Shown here: piece by piece, positions 12,240-58,487 of the stretch
Layout: each line of letters opens with the position of its first letter
How positions within the stretch are numbered: the stretch's first letter is position 1
Source: Yeosuana aromativorans
GTDB lineage: Bacteria; Bacteroidota; Bacteroidia; Flavobacteriales; Flavobacteriaceae
Assembly: GCF_014646655.1 (NCBI RefSeq)
Contig: NZ_BMNR01000001.1
Location: 626,572-690,571 of the forward strand
DNA: 64,000 nucleotides
Direction of reading: 5' to 3'
The notes under the pieces: model-generated
Database searches by the model: none
What the model saw: only the letters and a program-made list of their open reading frames with translations
Told to the model about the DNA's origin: nothing
Made by a program: the position numbers and the translations under genes

Positions 12240-12695
12240 ATGCTCTCAAATGCTTGTAAATATGCCATTCGTTCTATTTTATACTTAGGAATTCAAACGG
12301 ATGAGAACACTAAAGTAGGTGTTAAAAGAATTGCTGATGAGCTAGAAACACCTCAGCCTTTTTTAGCCAAATTATTGCAACAGCTCACAAAAACCAATTT
12401 GGTGTCTTCAACCAAAGGGCCGAATGGCGGATTTTACTTATCACAAAAAGACAAGGAAAATTCTGTTTGGGATGTTATTAAAAACATAGACGGCACCTCA
12501 AAATTTGATGACTGCTTTTTAGGTTTGTCAACATGTAGTGACAACAATCCGTGCCCGGTTCATTTTATTGTATCACCATTCAAACAAAAACTATTGGACA
12601 ATTTTAAGGATAAAACCATTGCCCAATATGTTACGGAAATAACCAAAACAGGAAAAGTTATTTCCCTTAAGGATTTTGATATTTTAAAAAACTAG
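12240..12695 (+). CDS. Rrf2-family transcriptional regulator with a three-cysteine motif
   Basis: From the ATG at 12240 the product is 151 residues and starts MLSNACKYAIRSILYL, the standard Rrf2/IscR/NsrR winged-helix N-terminus. Recognition-helix region PQPFLAKLLQQLTK and wing STKGPNGGFYLS follow. Cys92, Cys99 and Cys105 (C-x6-C-x5-C) match the spacing of the iron-sulphur-binding cysteines of IscR/NsrR/RsrR-type sensors. It is therefore probably a redox, iron-sulphur or NO-responsive DNA-binding protein. I prefer this start over the TTG at 12222 because that TTG is part of a promoter box. It is divergent from nadA and convergent with the 605-residue gene, sharing the bases CTAG as both stop codons (12692-12695). 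Confidence 0.9.
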   Translation: MLSNACKYAIRSILYLGIQTDENTKVGVKRIADELETPQPFLAKLLQQLTKTNLVSSTKGPNGGFYLSQKDKENSVWDVIKNIDGTSKFDDCFLGLSTCSDNNPCPVHFIVSPFKQKLLDNFKDKTIAQYVTEITKTGKVISLKDFDILKN

Positions 12696-14509
12696 CTGTT
12701 AACGGGAATTAGTGATAGGTTTTCTATTTCTGAACCTATGTTTTGTAACATTTTTACACTCTTCTCCAATTCATTTAAAACAGAATCTTTTATTTCTTCA
12801 AAAGCATTGGTGACTGTTTCAAATAAATTTTGATAATACAAAACACCTTCCTGCATATTATTTGTAAAAGTCAATAGATATTTTTCTTCTTTTTTGTTCA
12901 TGTTCTTTTTGGCGTCTTCCAATTTATTTTTTAGAAAATCCATATAAATATGAAGTTCTTTGATGAACATATTGGGCCGATCTGTTCTGGTTATCATGTT
13001 ATCCCGTCCATAAATATGATCGGTCATGTTTATTAGGCTCATGATTTTTGAATAGTAAGCCATATTGGGTCCAGGGCAAATGGAAACACCGGTGCCTTCA
13101 ACTTTAGTATCCAAATTATAGGACAACAAAGCAGATGTACCCAAACCTACACAGGTACAGGTTTTTTCGGTGATTTTATTTAGACTCTCTTGATAGGCCT
13201 CTGCTGATAATTGCTGTCCTTCAAGCTCTTTTATTTTTAAATATTGGTATTCCCGCGAAGCCGTACAAATACCGGTTTCCTTGAATTCTTTGTTTAAAGA
13301 CACAAACTTCTTTGGGCATGCGCTTCCTGGTCTTCCCTTAGCTATAAAGGCTTCTTTTTCTAAATCTTTAGTATTGCCTCTAAGGTTATTAAACGGAACA
13401 CCTAAGGGAGAAATATCGCTTAAATACAAATCCTCTTCCTTGGCCTCAACCAATTGATGTAATGTTTTTTCATCAACCGTTGTGGCTTCGGGAACCAATA
13501 AAAATGGAGTGCCCCAACCAATGGAATCCAATTCATAATGGTCCAATAAAAACTCGTGTTCCTCTTCAGTGCCAACACCGCCTTGAGCAGAAATTTTTAT
13601 GGATAAATTATTGTTTGAAATAATGCGTCCTTGGTTCTCTAATTCTTGATTTAAAACATCTTGAATAGTAGCCCTTAACTCTTCCCGTTTTTCTTTAAAC
13701 TCCTGTAAAACCGGGCCTAAAAGATAGCCATCGGTCGCAAAGGCATGGCCACCACAATTAAGGCCTGATTCTATTCTATATTCTGAAACCCACAACCCTT
13801 TTTTTGCCAAAAATTTTCCTTGGATTAAAGCCGATCTGTAATCACTGACTTTTAAAATTATTTTCTTGTTAAAGTGACCATTTGCATTTGGATAAAAATC
13901 ATCAAACTGGCTCATGTAAGCATATAAACGTGGATTCATACCTGCAGACAATATCACAGATGATTTTAACTTACTTTGTGCAAAACCTCTTAATGCGGCA
14001 TGGGCATCATTATATTCTACGGGGAGTTTTTCAGTTTTATTATAATTGTCTTTATCAACCTTGGTCATAATGTTGACATCTATATGGCCCATGGTTAAAT
14101 TTTTGTTTGCCCAATTTTTAATTTCTGATAAATTGAAACCATTTTCCATTAGTTTATTGAACTCTGTTTTTAAAGACGAACTATCTGGAAGCATGGCAAT
14201 ATATTTCTTGATTTCATCAGTCTTTTCAATAGACACATTTTTTAAGGCCTGGAAATTTTTTTCGGCCAAATCGCTAATTAAATTTAAATAGGATGTGATT
14301 CGTTTCGCCCTAAAATCGTCAATTTTATCTGTGATTTCTTTGTATGGAATCTCAAATTTTTCGCTGTACATTTTGCGTAATTTCTCGAGGAGAATATCAT
14401 CAACCAAAGAAATAACCGAATCGATTCCGTATTGAGCAACTTTTAAAGGCGTGTCTATAGTAAATCCAATGCCCATTACAGGAATATGGAAGGAGTGTGT
14501 GTTTTTCAT
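12692..14509 (-). CDS. Conserved 605-residue protein of unknown function, Cys-rich C-terminal half
   Basis: A 605-residue soluble protein without signal peptide or membrane segments; I do not recognise its family. Visible blocks are a motif at residues 249-258 (SGLNCGGHAFATDG, Cys252) and a long helical N-terminal third. Five further cysteines sit in conserved-looking short motifs: SACPKK (398), GICTAS (415), KTCTCVG (451, 453) and ICPGPN (478). The spacing would suit an iron-sulphur cluster or redox thiols. PFLLVPEATTV and GRPGSACPKKF suggest an alpha/beta, possibly TIM-barrel-like, core. It lies between a [Fe-S]-type Rrf2 regulator and nrdGD and has its own promoter with a Crp/Fnr-like site. 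I infer a role in anaerobic or low-oxygen metabolism, without assigning a reaction. Confidence 0.8.
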   Translation of the reverse strand: MKNTHSFHIPVMGIGFTIDTPLKVAQYGIDSVISLVDDILLEKLRKMYSEKFEIPYKEITDKIDDFRAKRITSYLNLISDLAEKNFQALKNVSIEKTDEIKKYIAMLPDSSSLKTEFNKLMENGFNLSEIKNWANKNLTMGHIDVNIMTKVDKDNYNKTEKLPVEYNDAHAALRGFAQSKLKSSVILSAGMNPRLYAYMSQFDDFYPNANGHFNKKIILKVSDYRSALIQGKFLAKKGLWVSEYRIESGLNCGGHAFATDGYLLGPVLQEFKEKREELRATIQDVLNQELENQGRIISNNNLSIKISAQGGVGTEEEHEFLLDHYELDSIGWGTPFLLVPEATTVDEKTLHQLVEAKEEDLYLSDISPLGVPFNNLRGNTKDLEKEAFIAKGRPGSACPKKFVSLNKEFKETGICTASREYQYLKIKELEGQQLSAEAYQESLNKITEKTCTCVGLGTSALLSYNLDTKVEGTGVSICPGPNMAYYSKIMSLINMTDHIYGRDNMITRTDRPNMFIKELHIYMDFLKNKLEDAKKNMNKKEEKYLLTFTNNMQEGVLYYQNLFETVTNAFEEIKDSVLNELEKSVKMLQNIGSEIENLSLIPVNS

Positions 14510-14537: not shown

Positions 14538-14581
14538 TAAAGATATTTTATTGAAACCTTACAAAATATGACATTCATCAT
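14538..14581 (-). promoter_or_regulatory. Composite promoter of the 605-residue gene with a Crp/Fnr-like inverted repeat
   Basis: Read on the minus strand: ATGATGAATGTCAT (14568-14581, ATGA-N6-TCAT), one base, TTTTG (14562-14566), 16 bases, then TATCTTTA (14538-14545, one mismatch to TAnnTTTG). The ATG is 28 bp further on. The site abuts the -33 box, the position of a class II activator. The same layout with identical spacings is upstream of the YceI gene at 58302. Confidence 0.6.
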
Positions 14582-14660: not shown

Positions 14661-16532
14661 TTATTTATCTATTAAGACCCCTAATTTATGTTCTTGATGT
14701 TGCTCTTGGAATTTTGTTATGGCGTTGGCTCGAATATCGGCCAACTTGGTTGATGGTTTTTCAATATGGTAATGCCTTAACTGATGCTCTTGTTGTCTAC
14801 CAGAACTAAAACTTGATACCCGTTTTAAATAGCCAATAACGCGCGTTGCGTGATCCACATCAGTAGAGCCACAAGTAGTACATACATAATTTGTTTGTTT
14901 AGATATGGCATTACAATCATTACAAATGGTAATTCTGATATTAAAACAGAAATAATTACAACCAGCGGCAGCCGTTGCATGGATAAGCTTAACAAAACCA
15001 TCTTTGTTTGGCGCTTCCTCAAGATTAAGGTGAAGTGCTGAACCGCCATCAAGGTATTTGATAATGTCTTTACCGTGTAATATAATTTTATCAAGCGTAT
15101 TGGTTTGTTGGTCTTCCACTTTATAGAAATAAGAGTTGTAGCAATCTCTTGGAACCAACAAGCCATCTTCTTTGTCCCATTTGGCATTTTTAACACCTAA
15201 ATTTTCTGCAGGTACAAATTCTGTATTGAACATATAGCCATAGTGCTTTTTAGCCAATTTATTTTCATCATAAATGGCTTTTAAATGCGAGTTTACAAAC
15301 TTTTTATACGTATCATTATTGCCAACAGTAATCCCTTGGCTTTCGGCAGCTTCAACCATACCATTAATGCCAATAGTCAAAAATTGTTTGTCCAGTGCTA
15401 TAAATCCAGCTTTATAAACGGGAAGCAAGCCCGCCTGTTCATATTCTTCAATAAGACTTCTGTATGCCACTTGATATTGATGTATTTTTCTAACCTCATC
15501 AACAATATTGGCGCCTTTTTGAACCAAGCGGTTCATGTTGAGTGTAATCACGTTTATGGATCCTGTGGCCACACCGCCGGCTCCTAAAGAGTAGCTGAAC
15601 GTATTATCACTTATCTCATTTCGCAATCTGCAACAAGATGCCAAACTATCGGCACTTTCAGATTGATAGATGAAAAATGAATTGCCCTCACTTAACTCTT
15701 TGGCACACATATCAGTAAATTCTTCATCAACCGGTTTGCCATCATTTACCAACATAGCAGCCGTAACCACTGGAAACGTGAGAATGGCTTTATTACGTTC
15801 GCCATTGAACCATTTCATAAAAAAGGCTTGTAGTTTTTTTAAGCTTTCCCATTTGGGTTTGGTCATGTCTGGAAATACAAAATCCCCAAACATGCTGTTA
15901 AAATACATTTCATCATATAAGGAAATATTCCAAAAAACTGATTGATACCCCCGAGCTGCAGCTGGTTGATTAACCGCATATACCACGTGCTGCAAATGAT
16001 TGGCTATAATATTTTTATGGGTGTCCAAATAATTTTCACCATAATCATTGACTGCAAAATGATCAAAGTACATCAAAAATTCAACGGTTGCCAAAGCCCC
16101 TGCAAATTGCGAGCTTATCGCAAACACCAAATTAACAAACTCACCACAAAAACTTTCCAAATGCTTGGGTGCCCTGCTTTCGCCACCTACCTTGGTAAGG
16201 CCATCCAATAAAAATGGGTACATACTAATGGACACACAATAGGGTTTTAAAGAGGTTTCGTCATGAATGTAAATTTCATGTGATTCAATTTGCTTGATGT
16301 ATTCATTGGCCAAGTCCTCACCAAAAAGCGATGCTATTTTCCGTTTTACCAAAGCCCTGTTGACCTGTATATTGATATCCTTATTAAGTTCTGCCTCCAT
16401 GGTTGCAATGTTTTTTGAGGTGACATTGGCATTGGCATCTACTTTTGAACCATCGGCTGCATTGGCCGAATGGATGTAATGTTCAATAAAATCAATTTTC
16501 TGGTTTACTTGGGCGTTGGTAAGTCGGATCAT
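14661..16532 (-). CDS. nrdD: Anaerobic (class III) ribonucleoside-triphosphate reductase
   Basis: A 623-residue glycyl-radical enzyme that makes deoxyribonucleotides without oxygen. The radical glycine is about Gly567 in RVIGYLKR, preceded by the four-Cys zinc site CNDC...CTTC. The active-site thiols are expected in KPYCVSIS and SLASCCRLRNE. Compared with the approximately 710-residue E. coli enzyme it lacks an N-terminal ATP-cone, since conserved sequence starts almost at once, so dATP inhibition is probably absent. About 55 residues follow the radical Gly, longer than usual. It lies 7 bp behind nrdG. Its presence implies growth or survival under anoxia. Confidence 0.93.
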   Translation of the reverse strand: MIRLTNAQVNQKIDFIEHYIHSANAADGSKVDANANVTSKNIATMEAELNKDINIQVNRALVKRKIASLFGEDLANEYIKQIESHEIYIHDETSLKPYCVSISMYPFLLDGLTKVGGESRAPKHLESFCGEFVNLVFAISSQFAGALATVEFLMYFDHFAVNDYGENYLDTHKNIIANHLQHVVYAVNQPAAARGYQSVFWNISLYDEMYFNSMFGDFVFPDMTKPKWESLKKLQAFFMKWFNGERNKAILTFPVVTAAMLVNDGKPVDEEFTDMCAKELSEGNSFFIYQSESADSLASCCRLRNEISDNTFSYSLGAGGVATGSINVITLNMNRLVQKGANIVDEVRKIHQYQVAYRSLIEEYEQAGLLPVYKAGFIALDKQFLTIGINGMVEAAESQGITVGNNDTYKKFVNSHLKAIYDENKLAKKHYGYMFNTEFVPAENLGVKNAKWDKEDGLLVPRDCYNSYFYKVEDQQTNTLDKIILHGKDIIKYLDGGSALHLNLEEAPNKDGFVKLIHATAAAGCNYFCFNIRITICNDCNAISKQTNYVCTTCGSTDVDHATRVIGYLKRVSSFSSGRQQEHQLRHYHIEKPSTKLADIRANAITKFQEQHQEHKLGVLIDK

Positions 16533-16539
16533 AATCGTG

Positions 16540-16989
16540 TTAGTTTTTTATAAATAAGTTGTTTTTTATGGTATTAGATGTTATTTCTATGAATTTTTGA
16601 TTGGTTTTTTCACTGCTCAATCCGCCTAATTCGGGCATCCATTTTCCTGTTTTTATCCAATCAAGCTGATTAAGTATATCCTTTGAGACGGTTTCTTCCC
16701 CGGTATATAAACAGGTTTTATATTGTTTGTTTTTGGCCAGTTTTAATAAATCAACCAACTGGTCTTTATGCCATTCGCCACCCATAAAAAGCACACAGGT
16801 AGCCAGGTTTTTATATTGTTGCAATTTTTCAGAAAAAACCGCTTTTGTTAATTCATAACCATTTTCTTCTTTCCATAAAAAAGAAGAATGACAACCTTCG
16901 CATTGAAGTGAACAACCGCAGATTGAAAAACACAAACTGATTTCTCCGGGTACTTCTTGCAATACAACTTGAAAGTCGTAGTAATTCAT
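16540..16989 (-). CDS. nrdG: Anaerobic ribonucleotide reductase activating protein (radical SAM)
   Basis: A 149-residue radical S-adenosylmethionine activase that installs the glycyl radical on NrdD. The [4Fe-4S] ligands are the three Cys of CSLQCEGCH (C-x3-C-x2-C), preceded by a further Cys in SICGC. VLFMGGEW is the glycine-rich SAM-contacting strand. It is short like other NrdG proteins. It is the first gene of the nrdG-nrdD unit. A perfect TAnnTTTG sits at 16993-17000 but so close to the ATG that it would give a leaderless message, so I do not assign the promoter. Confidence 0.92.
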   Translation of the reverse strand: MNYYDFQVVLQEVPGEISLCFSICGCSLQCEGCHSSFLWKEENGYELTKAVFSEKLQQYKNLATCVLFMGGEWHKDQLVDLLKLAKNKQYKTCLYTGEETVSKDILNQLDWIKTGKWMPELGGLSSEKTNQKFIEITSNTIKNNLFIKN

Positions 16990-55583: not shown

Positions 55584-56168
55584 TTATATTCCATATTCCT
55601 CAACTCTCAACTGAAAATTAATATCAATATTATCTTTAACCACTATAAGCCCAAGGACTTTTTTGGGTGGTTCTAAATTAAAGTCCCTAAGATTTAAAGT
55701 CAACATACCTTTAATAACTAATGTATCTTCATTTTCAAATTCAACAGGTACGCTGTAAGACCTTGTAACTCCCGCAATCTCTATGTCCAATAGTGTTTGG
55801 ATACGGTTTTCATCATTGGGGCATTTGGTTATTTCCCTTAATTTGATAAATATTTCTGGGTAGGTCTCCGATTTTAAAAGTTCTTGAAAATCATTGTTTA
55901 TTGCAGTTCCTCCACAATCAAAATTAGCATTTTCTAATACTAAGGTTGTTTTCTCAAAAATAATCTCATCATTATGTTTCCTAAAAAAAACAGATATAGG
56001 TTTGTCCAATTTCAAGACATTGTACTGACATTTAAAGGTATTGACATTTGTTCTCCCTTTGATAACAATTTTACTTGATGGGGCTATTATAACAGAAGCA
56101 CTTTTAACAAACTCATTTGTAAAAGCCAATGTTATTAAAATAGAAACAAAAAATAAAATCCTTTTCAT
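55584..56168 (-). CDS. YceI-like secreted protein
   Basis: A 194-residue protein with signal peptide (RILFFVSILITLAFTNEFVKS). The core resembles the YceI lipocalin-like family: SSKIVIKGRTNVNTFKCQY, then NNDFQELLKSETYPEIFIKL, VTRSYSVPVEF and LRDFNLEPPKKVLGLIVVKD. YceI folds bind isoprenoid or fatty lipids in a barrel; the ligand here is unknown. It is the third gene of the YceI-porin-YceI cluster, and its C-terminal PPKKVLG motif parallels PPTALFG in the first gene. It lies 123 bp downstream of the barrel protein gene. Confidence 0.8.
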   Translation of the reverse strand: MKRILFFVSILITLAFTNEFVKSASVIIAPSSKIVIKGRTNVNTFKCQYNVLKLDKPISVFFRKHNDEIIFEKTTLVLENANFDCGGTAINNDFQELLKSETYPEIFIKLREITKCPNDENRIQTLLDIEIAGVTRSYSVPVEFENEDTLVIKGMLTLNLRDFNLEPPKKVLGLIVVKDNIDINFQLRVEEYGI

Positions 56169-56291: not shown

Positions 56292-57665
56292 TTAGAAACT
56301 AATTACAGCTTCAAATACTAATCCTTTGAATTTACCACCATATAGATCATTAGGGTTTCCTCCAGAGGTGATGTTAAAATCTTTATAGTTTTGGTTTACA
56401 TATTCCAATTTAGTTAAAATATTTTTTGTCATAAACCAACCTAAACTTGATTCAAATCTGTTGATGTTTATTTTATTGGCATCAGCATTTGAAAGTTTTC
56501 CGCTTACTGTATTATATTTAGCTCCAATATATAGGTTTTCTTTATTTCCAAATCTATATACCACATCTCCTGCGTATTGATTTACCTTACGAGTTGCATC
56601 ATCTCCTCTTTTGTTACCTCCTGAGGCAAATTCTAAAGTTCCAAATAACTCTAATCCACCATATTTCACAAATGGGTTAACCATAAAAGAAGTTGCCCAA
56701 TTGCCAAATCCTGGGTTGAAACGGCCTGTATCTTTATTAGATGTTGGATCAAAATTACTTGATACAGGACCTGCTATTCCTGTGTAATCATCATGTGTCA
56801 TAACACCATAGAAACGGCTACCTGCTCTATCTGAAGCATATAAGTTACCACTAGAGTTGGATACGTGGTACAAAGACCCGGTAAGTCTTACTCTTAAATC
56901 ATCGCTAAGCTGTTTATCAAATCCTACTTTTGCTAAAATAGTTGGACTAATAGTTGTGTTTTGACCTGGTGTACCAGCTTTGATTTCTTTAACATCTTGA
57001 TTCAATTTTGAATTTGTAACACCCAACATGCTTACAAAACCGCTTCTGTTATAATATACTTCAATACCAGGTTCTGTAGTAAATGCATCCATAATATTGT
57101 TGCCAACAAACGGATTCATTAAAGCATTTCCATTGTCAGATCTTCTAAAATGGGCATCACCATAGTTATTCTCCATTTGTCCAATTTTAATGGTGGCATA
57201 TTTCATGATGTCTGATGCAAATCCTTCTTTAATAAAGTCTAGTTTATCTATTTGAAGATATCCTCCTTTTACCCATGTCTCATGGTGGTGTCTTGATGCA
57301 AGGTAAAGATCTAAATTTACTCGTACTCCATCAGCTAATTGAGCACCAATGGTCATGTTAGCTGTAGGTAAATTAAGGTTGTTTGACAAGTTATTTAATC
57401 TGTATCCAGAAATTGGAGCCGTTTGAGTTGCAGGTTGATCATTAAATTGATCTATTGCTTGAAATTGAAGTGCAAAAGCTGCTCCTAAATCCACACTTAA
57501 GCCTTTAAACTCTACACTGTCTTTTTTGACATCAAATTGATTGATTCCATTTTGATCTCTCGGAATTTGATTCTGTATTTGCCCTAAAGTTAATTGAGCG
57601 TTTGCAACATTTCCTATAACAAGGAGCGTAAATAATAATATTATTTTTTTAAAAATTGTGTTCAT
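56292..57665 (-). CDS. Outer-membrane beta-barrel (porin-like) protein
   Basis: A 457-residue exported protein with signal peptide (KIILLFTLLVIGNVANAQ), many short amphipathic strands and a terminal Phe (VFEAVISF), the outer-membrane barrel pattern. Recognisable stretches are GAQLADGVRVNLDLYLASRHHHETWVKGG (not a metal site I can name), KIGQMENNYGDAHFRRSDNG and LGWFMTKNILTKLEYVNQNY. The layout recalls phosphate-porin-like barrels of Bacteroidota. It is flanked by two YceI-type genes, so lipid or quinone-like cargo handling between membranes is possible but inferred. Confidence 0.78.
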   Translation of the reverse strand: MNTIFKKIILLFTLLVIGNVANAQLTLGQIQNQIPRDQNGINQFDVKKDSVEFKGLSVDLGAAFALQFQAIDQFNDQPATQTAPISGYRLNNLSNNLNLPTANMTIGAQLADGVRVNLDLYLASRHHHETWVKGGYLQIDKLDFIKEGFASDIMKYATIKIGQMENNYGDAHFRRSDNGNALMNPFVGNNIMDAFTTEPGIEVYYNRSGFVSMLGVTNSKLNQDVKEIKAGTPGQNTTISPTILAKVGFDKQLSDDLRVRLTGSLYHVSNSSGNLYASDRAGSRFYGVMTHDDYTGIAGPVSSNFDPTSNKDTGRFNPGFGNWATSFMVNPFVKYGGLELFGTLEFASGGNKRGDDATRKVNQYAGDVVYRFGNKENLYIGAKYNTVSGKLSNADANKININRFESSLGWFMTKNILTKLEYVNQNYKDFNITSGGNPNDLYGGKFKGLVFEAVISF

Positions 57666-57702: not shown

Positions 57703-58302
57703 TTAATTGTTTAATGCTTTTTGAAATATGGTTGAAAATTCAATGGTAAGTTCATCACCTGTAGTTATTGTTCCAAATAAGGCTGTTGGGGGTTCTATGT
57801 TAAACTCGGTCATTTTAATTTTTTTCTCACCGGTCAATTTTATTTTAGATCCTGTAATAGTAACTGTAAAATCCAACGGGATGGTTTTTTTAACACCAGC
57901 AATAGTTAAATCACCAATGGCATTTACATCAAATAGTCCATTACCTTTGCTGACAGTTTTTTTGACTTCAGTTAACCTAAATGAAATAGTTTTATACTTA
58001 TCTGTTTTTAATGCTTCATAAGTGTTTTTATCCATTCCACGTTTACCGCTTTTTATACTTTCTGCAACAATATTAATAGTGATTTGTTCTATTTGACCTG
58101 CTTCAAGATTATTGAAATTAATTTTGCCGCTTTGACTTTCAGCAACTTCATGCCAGTCGTGAATACTGGAAGTCCCCATGATTTTTAAAGATGATTCTCC
58201 ATTAATTAAGTCAAACTCCTGAGCTTGAATTGAATTGAATGATATTGTCAAAAGAACCACTAAACTTAAAATTCCGGTACTTATTTTTTTAGATGTTTTC
58301 AT
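57703..58302 (-). CDS. YceI-family lipid-binding protein
   Basis: From the ATG at 58302 the product is 199 residues. It has a signal peptide (ISTGILSLVVLLTISFNSIQA) and a YceI domain: SSLKIMGTSSIHDWHEVAESQSGKI, KRGMDKNTYEALKTDKYKTISFRL, LTIAGVKKTIPLDFTV and KMTEFNIEPPTALFGTI. This branch with SSIHDWH is frequent in Bacteroidota. The first 15 codons of the longer frame overlap the promoter and are rejected. It is the first gene of the cluster, controlled by a composite promoter with three Crp/Fnr-like sites. Confidence 0.9.
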   Translation of the reverse strand: MKTSKKISTGILSLVVLLTISFNSIQAQEFDLINGESSLKIMGTSSIHDWHEVAESQSGKINFNNLEAGQIEQITINIVAESIKSGKRGMDKNTYEALKTDKYKTISFRLTEVKKTVSKGNGLFDVNAIGDLTIAGVKKTIPLDFTVTITGSKIKLTGEKKIKMTEFNIEPPTALFGTITTGDELTIEFSTIFQKALNN

Positions 58303-58327: not shown

Positions 58328-58371
58328 CAAATTTCTATATGAAACAAATGTCAAAACATGATATTTCTCAT
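58328..58371 (-). promoter_or_regulatory. Composite promoter of the YceI-porin-YceI cluster with a Crp/Fnr-like inverted repeat
   Basis: Read on the minus strand: ATGAGAAATATCAT (58358-58371), one base, TTTTG (58352-58356), 16 bases, then GAAATTTG (58328-58335, one mismatch to TAnnTTTG). The ATG is 26 bp further. Element order and spacings equal those upstream of the 605-residue gene (14538-14581). Confidence 0.65.
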
Positions 58372-58487
58372 ATCTGGGTGCAGTGAAAAAAGAAGATGTC
58401 AAAACATGATTTTTCTCATGTTTGAGTGCATTTTAAAGAGTAAATTTTAAAATATGATATTTCTCATAAACACAAAAGAATGAGATA
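58344..58487. repeat. Three tandem 48-bp units, each with an ATGA-N6-TCAT site
   Basis: Plus-strand cores ATGATATTTCTCAT, ATGATTTTTCTCAT and ATGATATTTCTCAT start at 58358, 58406 and 58454, exactly 48 bp apart. Units 1 and 2 also share TGTCAAAACATGAT before and TGxGTGCA after the core. Unit 3 keeps mainly the core. It is a decaying tandem duplication of a regulator-binding segment. Confidence 0.8.

Follow-up and report, generated by a model that had tools for sequence, protein, structure and literature searches.

The window, i.e. the whole stretch of 64,000 nucleotides that was analysed, contains two gene groups that bear on this study. In the first, a gene for an nrdG-type activating protein (16540..16989) and nrdD, which encodes the anaerobic ribonucleoside-triphosphate reductase (14661..16532), lie upstream of a gene for a 605-aa protein (12692..14509; all three on the minus strand), which also adjoins an Rrf2 gene. 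In the second, the gene of a YceI-family protein (57703..58302, with its start set at the ATG at 58302) is followed by the gene of a 457-aa protein (56292..57665) and by that of a second YceI-family protein (55584..56168), again all on the minus strand. Both gene orders had been read correctly in the initial annotation; its name "porin" for the 457-aa protein finds no counterpart among Pfam or NCBIfam matches.

The 605-aa protein has no sequence match in Pfam, NCBIfam or PDB. Members of its family share 63-89% identity over the 80 loci that were fetched, mostly in Flavobacteriaceae, with some labelled Bacteroidales, and an alignment of 16 sequences contains six invariant cysteines. The fold of an FMN-type barrel enzyme was considered and is too weakly indicated to be named: the AlphaFold2 model has a mean pLDDT of 58.9, and its best Foldseek match is the enoyl reductase PfaD (E 6.6e-4, TM 0.22), which makes an FMN-dependent barrel a lead only.

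Two promoters in the window

The promoter of the 605-aa gene (14538-14581, minus strand) consists of ATGATGAATGTCAT, A, TTTTG, 16 bp and TATCTTTA, and that of the first YceI gene (58328-58371, minus strand) of ATGAGAAATATCAT, G, TTTTG, 16 bp and GAAATTTG. The initial annotation had proposed that these two promoters share the same parts in the same order, and this is borne out: both elements lie where they were said to lie, and the full pattern, TTTTG included, matches just these two promoters in the window when one mismatch is allowed, and has 0 matches in 100 dinucleotide shuffles. The dyad, a 22-bp spacer and the -7 box taken together occur twice, as compared to 0.11 expected, and no shuffle reached 2; the dyad alone is mildly enriched (6 occurrences as compared to 2.0 expected, with 3 of 100 shuffles reaching 6). 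Before the neighbouring nrdGD pair the composite is absent, and nrdG has no upstream dyad with fewer than two outer-base mismatches.

In the promoter of the 605-aa gene, the predicted dyad operator ATGAT-GAAT-GTCAT (14568..14581), which is kept in orthologues, is separated by the 22-bp spacer (14546..14567) from the -7 box TATCTTTA (14538..14545, consensus TAnnTTTG); the spacer includes the TTTTG (14562-14566), which is not conserved in orthologues. According to the transcription map of Flavobacterium psychrophilum, as described in a part of PMC9723704, the TAnnTTTG box of that species is located at -12 to -5. Since the spacer is 22 bp long, this published place of the box puts the dyad at a predicted -48 to -35, with its centre at -41.5, and the predicted transcription start at about 14533. 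In the YceI promoter, the promoter-proximal dyad ATGAG-AAAT-ATCAT (58358..58371) likewise has its predicted centre at -41.5, and the -7 box GAAATTTG (58328..58335) predicts a start at about 58323. All these elements are on the minus strand.

The YceI promoter contains more than had been noticed at first, namely three dyads at exact 48-bp steps on the minus strand, with a second dyad at 58406..58419 (predicted centre -89.5) and a third at 58454..58467. The first two of these 48-bp repeats are similar beyond the dyad itself, which makes a tandem duplication the likely origin. Elsewhere in the same genome, two dyads with a 48-bp step are also found in the promoter of a YceI paralogue (C2:493906, L070). 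As the two promoters can be aligned and the YceI proteins behind them are 83% identical, the step was probably inherited. We also considered the 48-bp step as a general class III rule and rejected it: in 149 genomes, pairs exactly 48 bp apart number three in the genome of the window and one each in two others (G080 and G094), and dyad pairs with a gap of 16-46 bp are found in 46 of the 149. That the dyad at -89.5 has a role in activation is a guess.

The composite in the genome and beyond

When TTTTG was obligatory and one mismatch was allowed, the genome to which the window belongs gave 65 matches, as compared to 10 for the control, and 35 of these 65 were inside open reading frames. Many of the intergenic matches had exactly 22 bp between the dyad and the -7 box, and the pattern was therefore refined to ATGAYN4RTCAT-N22-TAnnTTTG, with one mismatch allowed and the reversed pattern as control. 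The refined composite has 37 matches in the genome and 0 in the control. TTTTG was left out because its removal, together with the fixed 22-bp spacer, gave this clean set. The promoter of the 605-aa gene has one mismatch to the refined consensus and is included in the set, and the YceI promoter of the window has two and is excluded. At three mismatches, the counts are 466 and 249, respectively, so that loose matches are mostly background.

Of the 37 sites 36 were located, and 35 of them are intergenic with one in coding sequence, which bears out the expectation that the pattern should be more frequent upstream of genes than inside them. The start codon of a called gene on the right strand is found within 120 bp of 31 of the 36 located sites, where gene calls are the longest open reading frames of at least 80 aa, made without annotation and with approximate starts. 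This length threshold is why the count misses ccoS (61 aa), which starts 21 bp from its own site.

Across 149 Flavobacteriaceae genomes from 148 genera, there are 2024 composites with at most one mismatch, as compared to 151 in the control; the composite exceeds the control in 136 genomes and falls below it in 5. The proposal of a regulon in Flavobacteriaceae thus holds in that the composite is spread over the family, and has to be revised in extent, as the regulon appears to be far larger than two promoters. In a sample of the phylum, 161 of 296 genomes have a match. Another family of the same order has 46 composites as compared to 4 control matches (6 genomes), and other families of the same class have 137 as compared to 19 (37 genomes). 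Further genomes of the phylum mostly have 0 to 3, with exceptions; one of these, G413 (family f46), is outside the class of the window genome and has 30 composites and 0 control matches.

Conservation and promoter geometry

Orthologous loci were examined for both target genes. For the 605-aa gene, the best 80 of 107 loci were fetched, and the dyad was sought within 200 bp upstream. With up to one mismatch allowed, the dyad is found in 61 of the 80, as compared to 14.1 in base-composition shuffles, and an exact one in 48, as compared to 0.94; 19 loci have no dyad within the 200 bp. The composite, with at least five of the six letters of the -7 box at 22 bp, is present in 54 loci, and any different spacer length in the range of 16-28 bp is seen in at most one. 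For the YceI gene, 30 loci (the own one included) were taken from 44 matches in 42 of the 149 genomes. Here the dyad, again with up to one mismatch, is found in 29, as compared to 7.1 in base-composition shuffles, and the composite in 26, with a spacer of 23 bp in two. Conservation upstream of the orthologues of either gene, on which the original idea depended, is therefore seen for both. In many of the YceI orthologues (L244-L273), and across genera, the -7 box reads GAnnTTTG instead of TAnnTTTG.

The spacer length was also scanned with a free gap of 10-34 bp in 60 genomes. Among the 150 matches listed (at least 150 exist), 103 have 22 bp, 8 have 23 bp, 5 have 21 bp, and any other length is represented by at most 6. 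A pattern shared in the window might still have arisen by coincidence in AT-rich intergenic DNA, as would suit the dyad alone, which is just three times over expectation there; the genome-wide control (37 to 0), the conservation in orthologues, the two window composites where 0.11 were expected, the preference for a single spacer among the listed matches, and the intergenic placement of 35 of 36 sites contradict this, and make its probability practically negligible.

Class II promoters of E. coli CRP and FNR have their activator site centred at -41.5. The dyad described here has two-fold symmetry, a TGA-N6-TCA core and a centre near -41.5, as computed from the published position of the box, and the class II geometry of a Crp/Fnr-type activator, suggested earlier for the two window promoters, fits. 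The part ascribed to TTTTG as a "-33 box" does not survive: exact TTTTG occurs in 2 of the 54 composite promoters of 605-aa orthologues and in 1 of the 26 of YceI orthologues, and for this reason we regard it as dispensable and do not count it among the parts. At the corresponding position, the 29 sites of the window's genome that were compared show no more than a weak bias for T, i.e. the -33 element is weak or absent, and its role is probably taken by the activator. The -7 box in these 29 sites is mostly TAnnTTTA or TAnnTTTG, as in sigma-A promoters of Bacteroidota, a form that the search pattern itself favours. Independently of this bias, 103 of the 150 listed matches fall at one spacer.

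Genes behind the sites

Targets of composites with at most one mismatch were identified from what the nearby genes match in Pfam and NCBIfam. For the cbb3 oxidase they are ccoI and ccoS-ccoNO. Sec-type nosZ is found together with a cytochrome c gene, and an Rrf2 gene is divergent from them. Further targets are hemA and hemN, NiFe hydrogenase and hypA, two multihaem cytochromes, an Fe-S/NrfD-type pair, a 2-oxoacid oxidoreductase, and a 4Fe-4S protein with pyruvate:ferredoxin oxidoreductase behind it; a molybdopterin oxidoreductase, for which PhsA is the best NCBIfam match, below the cut-off, is also among them. Other composites precede NADH dehydrogenase chain 3, a DsbD-like protein, PEP carboxykinase, DnaJ- and CBS-type genes, a second YceI gene, and a Usp gene that adjoins a receiver-CRP gene. 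In front of moeA lies a dyad whose spacer measures 23 bp. Several targets are not plainly anaerobic, namely TonB-like, T9SS-tail, lectin-domain, FadL-type and PQQ-repeat proteins.

As anticipated for anaerobic, denitrification and haem genes, composites thus precede the cbb3 oxidase, nosZ, hemA, hemN and hydrogenase genes. Oxygen limitation induces the cbb3 oxidase and haem genes in F. psychrophilum, according to a part of PMC9723704, and this agrees with the targets listed above. The suggestion that the regulon serves life at low oxygen is accordingly upheld for the classes of its targets, and a response to oxygen by the promoters themselves would be expected.

In some places, a single dyad is common to two divergent promoters. 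The nosZ operon and the Rrf2 gene (L233:4775-4848) are one such pair, and hydrogenase and hypA (L231) are another; ccoI and the gene of an FNR-like regulator (L230) form a third, in which the box is weaker.

An island of 35 kb (C2:422.7-457.3 kb; L228, L229, C2:420000-459999) contains 15 matches on 13 separate dyads when up to two mismatches are allowed, a level between the one and the three mismatches for which control matches were counted; 7 of the 15 have the form CTGAY... The sites in the island surround a PAS histidine kinase gene and a receiver-CRP gene, and genes of the island code for HSP20, Usp, B12-dependent ribonucleotide reductase, CBS, BON, DnaJ and peroxiredoxin proteins. The site at the B12-dependent ribonucleotide reductase gene overlaps the called start of that gene.

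Candidate regulators

The genome has seven matches to HTH_Crp_2, six of them over the cut-off. A recognition helix with the pattern E-x3-R is found in three of these six: the FNR-like protein L071, whose gene is the one divergent from ccoI across the shared dyad, and two fusions of a receiver domain with a CRP-type protein, L072 and L074. The same helix pattern is kept in 30 of 30 near FNR-like proteins and, as judged by a search pattern, in 9 of 10 receiver-CRP proteins. Rodionov and colleagues, in a part of PMC1274295, connect E181 with base A6 of the site and R180 with base G3. The candidate regulators retain the E and have a residue other than R at position 180, which is in line with a TGA core that has no outer G.

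The number of sites follows the presence of these regulators, taken as a match to the L071 or the L074 type at E 1e-40 or better in the 149 genomes. On average, a genome has 25.8 sites where both types are present (n=36), 10.6 with the FNR-like type only (n=55), 14.5 with the receiver-CRP type only (n=30), and 2.9 (median 1) with neither (n=28), all of these being raw counts over related genomes that ignore kinship and completeness. There are exceptions: among the 28 genomes with neither type, one has 17 sites and another 21, whereas at most 4 are found in 10 of the 55 with the FNR-like type only. The co-occurrence with Crp/Fnr regulators that had been predicted for the pattern is thus recovered.

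Four cysteines of FNR are known as the ligands of its cluster. L071 is similar to FNR structures 5cvr and 5e44 (phmmer E 1.8e-23) and has the CRP/FNR fold together with the E-x3-R helix; it scores 95.5 bits with the NCBIfam Fnr model, for which the cut-off is 228. Its C4, C7 and C106 align with FNR cysteines, and the third FNR cysteine corresponds to N13, so that L071 lacks the complete set of four at the FNR ligand positions and has the invariant C53 instead of the third. All of the 50 FNR-like orthologues examined (30 near and 20 distant) have C4, C7, C53 and C106, and it is a natural guess that C53 serves as fourth ligand of a [4Fe-4S] cluster.

Could the dyad belong to another regulator, such as an Rrf2/NsrR-like or a different Crp-like protein, acting as a repressor or an activator? 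The Rrf2 gene next to the 605-aa gene would suit this, as would the other Rrf2 gene that shares its dyad with the nosZ operon; the number of HTH_Crp_2 matches leaves room for further Crp-like readers, and E-x3-R is also seen in L077 (the HTH_Crp_2 match below the cut-off) and in the cNMP-binding protein L024. A site at -48 to -35 with a lost -33 box, however, suits an activator better than a repressor; the number of sites tracks the FNR-like and receiver-CRP genes; and the ATGAY half-site is unlike the NsrR consensus gATGyAT-N5-ATrCATc as given in a part of PMC1274295. We regard this alternative as quite improbable. L024 (L024:877-1458) is a protein of 193 aa with the E-x3-R helix at its end, and has a dyad 42 bp upstream of its gene, without the composite; it is possible that it is a further regulator.

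The reading that we prefer, to which we would assign a probability of about 0.8, is that of a Bacteroidota-type sigma-A promoter with class II geometry and dependence on an activator, which is read by a dimer of the CRP/FNR superfamily and serves a large low-oxygen regulon. It draws on properties of the sequence, i.e. the composite, its fixed spacing and intergenic placement, its conservation in orthologues, the target classes and the association with regulators. The dimer would bind ATGAYN4RTCAT centred at -41.5 and touch RNA polymerase, replacing a good -33 box, and the polymerase would then use TAnnTTTR at -12 to -5, so that one promoter form would serve a large regulon of life at low oxygen. 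For the role of activator, the FNR-like L071, encoded beside ccoI, and the receiver-CRP fusions L072 and L074 would be the likeliest candidates.

A more specific version, which we put forward tentatively and at somewhat less than even odds, has one low-oxygen regulon with two sensors that converge on the dyad at -41.5. One sensor would be an FNR variant with rearranged ligands (C4, C7, C53, C106), and the other a receiver-CRP fusion controlled by a PAS kinase, which would also govern a DosR-like, dormancy-type island, a likeness reached independently. It is also conceivable that just one type of regulator reads the dyad and the association of the other is indirect, both being kept by facultatively anaerobic lineages, since lifestyle could drive both counts and the genomes are related. 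Genomes with the FNR-like type only and those with the receiver-CRP type only are both rich in sites, however, and the E-x3-R helix is kept in both types; this makes a single reader unlikely.

Flavobacteriaceae are major marine and freshwater bacteria, and with a DNA rule that has 37 sites in one genome and no control matches, the regulation of the genes for their cbb3 oxidase, nitrous-oxide reductase, hydrogenase and oxoacid oxidoreductase can be tested directly. The rule names candidate regulators, and would link the 605-residue protein and the YceI proteins to low-oxygen life.

Comparison with known systems

In a literature search we recognised no paper with this site or with a low-oxygen CRP/FNR regulon of Flavobacteriaceae, the phrase searches being weak, perhaps because of the slash in "CRP/FNR". 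A survey of target motifs of CRP/FNR proteins is said to have been published (Matsui 2013), and a motif of the same kind may already be in print there or in other papers. For one CRP/FNR homologue of Flavobacteriales, carbon sensing was predicted from its likeness to MalR, according to a part of PMC8510549. The kind of system is known; what is new, without a claim of priority, lies in the site and its promoter context, in the cysteine pattern, and in the fact that receiver-CRP proteins are paired with it.

Two other systems are regulons of the same superfamily, found at least in part within the phylum. BT4338 of Bacteroides is Crp-like, with the site TATGTTnTAnAACATA; its half-site is different, and its targets, as described in a part of PMC3878776, are mainly genes of sugar utilisation. 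HcpR2 of Bacteroides and others (GTAACnnnnGTTAC) belongs to the CRP/FNR regulators of redox genes, some of which are found in Bacteroidota. Its site is also different, and in most Bacteroides and Porphyromonas the regulons predicted in a part of PMC1274295 consist of hcp genes only.

The gene content of the island at C2:422-457 kb recalls the DosR regulon of Mycobacterium tuberculosis. Both have HSP20, Usp, B12-dependent ribonucleotide reductase and a CBS protein, with a PAS kinase beside its response regulator. In the island, however, this regulator is not of the DosR (NarL/LuxR) type and combines a receiver domain with a DNA-binding domain of the CRP type, and the sites there are dyads of the CRP/FNR type. 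We make no claim of descent from DosR.

A close parallel is found in the FNR/DNR class II promoters of Proteobacteria, which share the 5-4-5 dyad, the TGA core, the centre at -41.5, the low-oxygen and denitrification targets, and an FNR-like regulator. As compared to the FNR/DNR site TTGATnnnnATCAA, given in a part of PMC1274295, the outer base here is A and not T (ATGAY), and the -7 box is the TAnnTTTG of Bacteroidota. Unlike FNR, the FNR-like protein lacks a cysteine at the third FNR position and has C53 as an invariant residue, and, in a further departure from the FNR/DNR systems, receiver-CRP fusions are associated with the same site.
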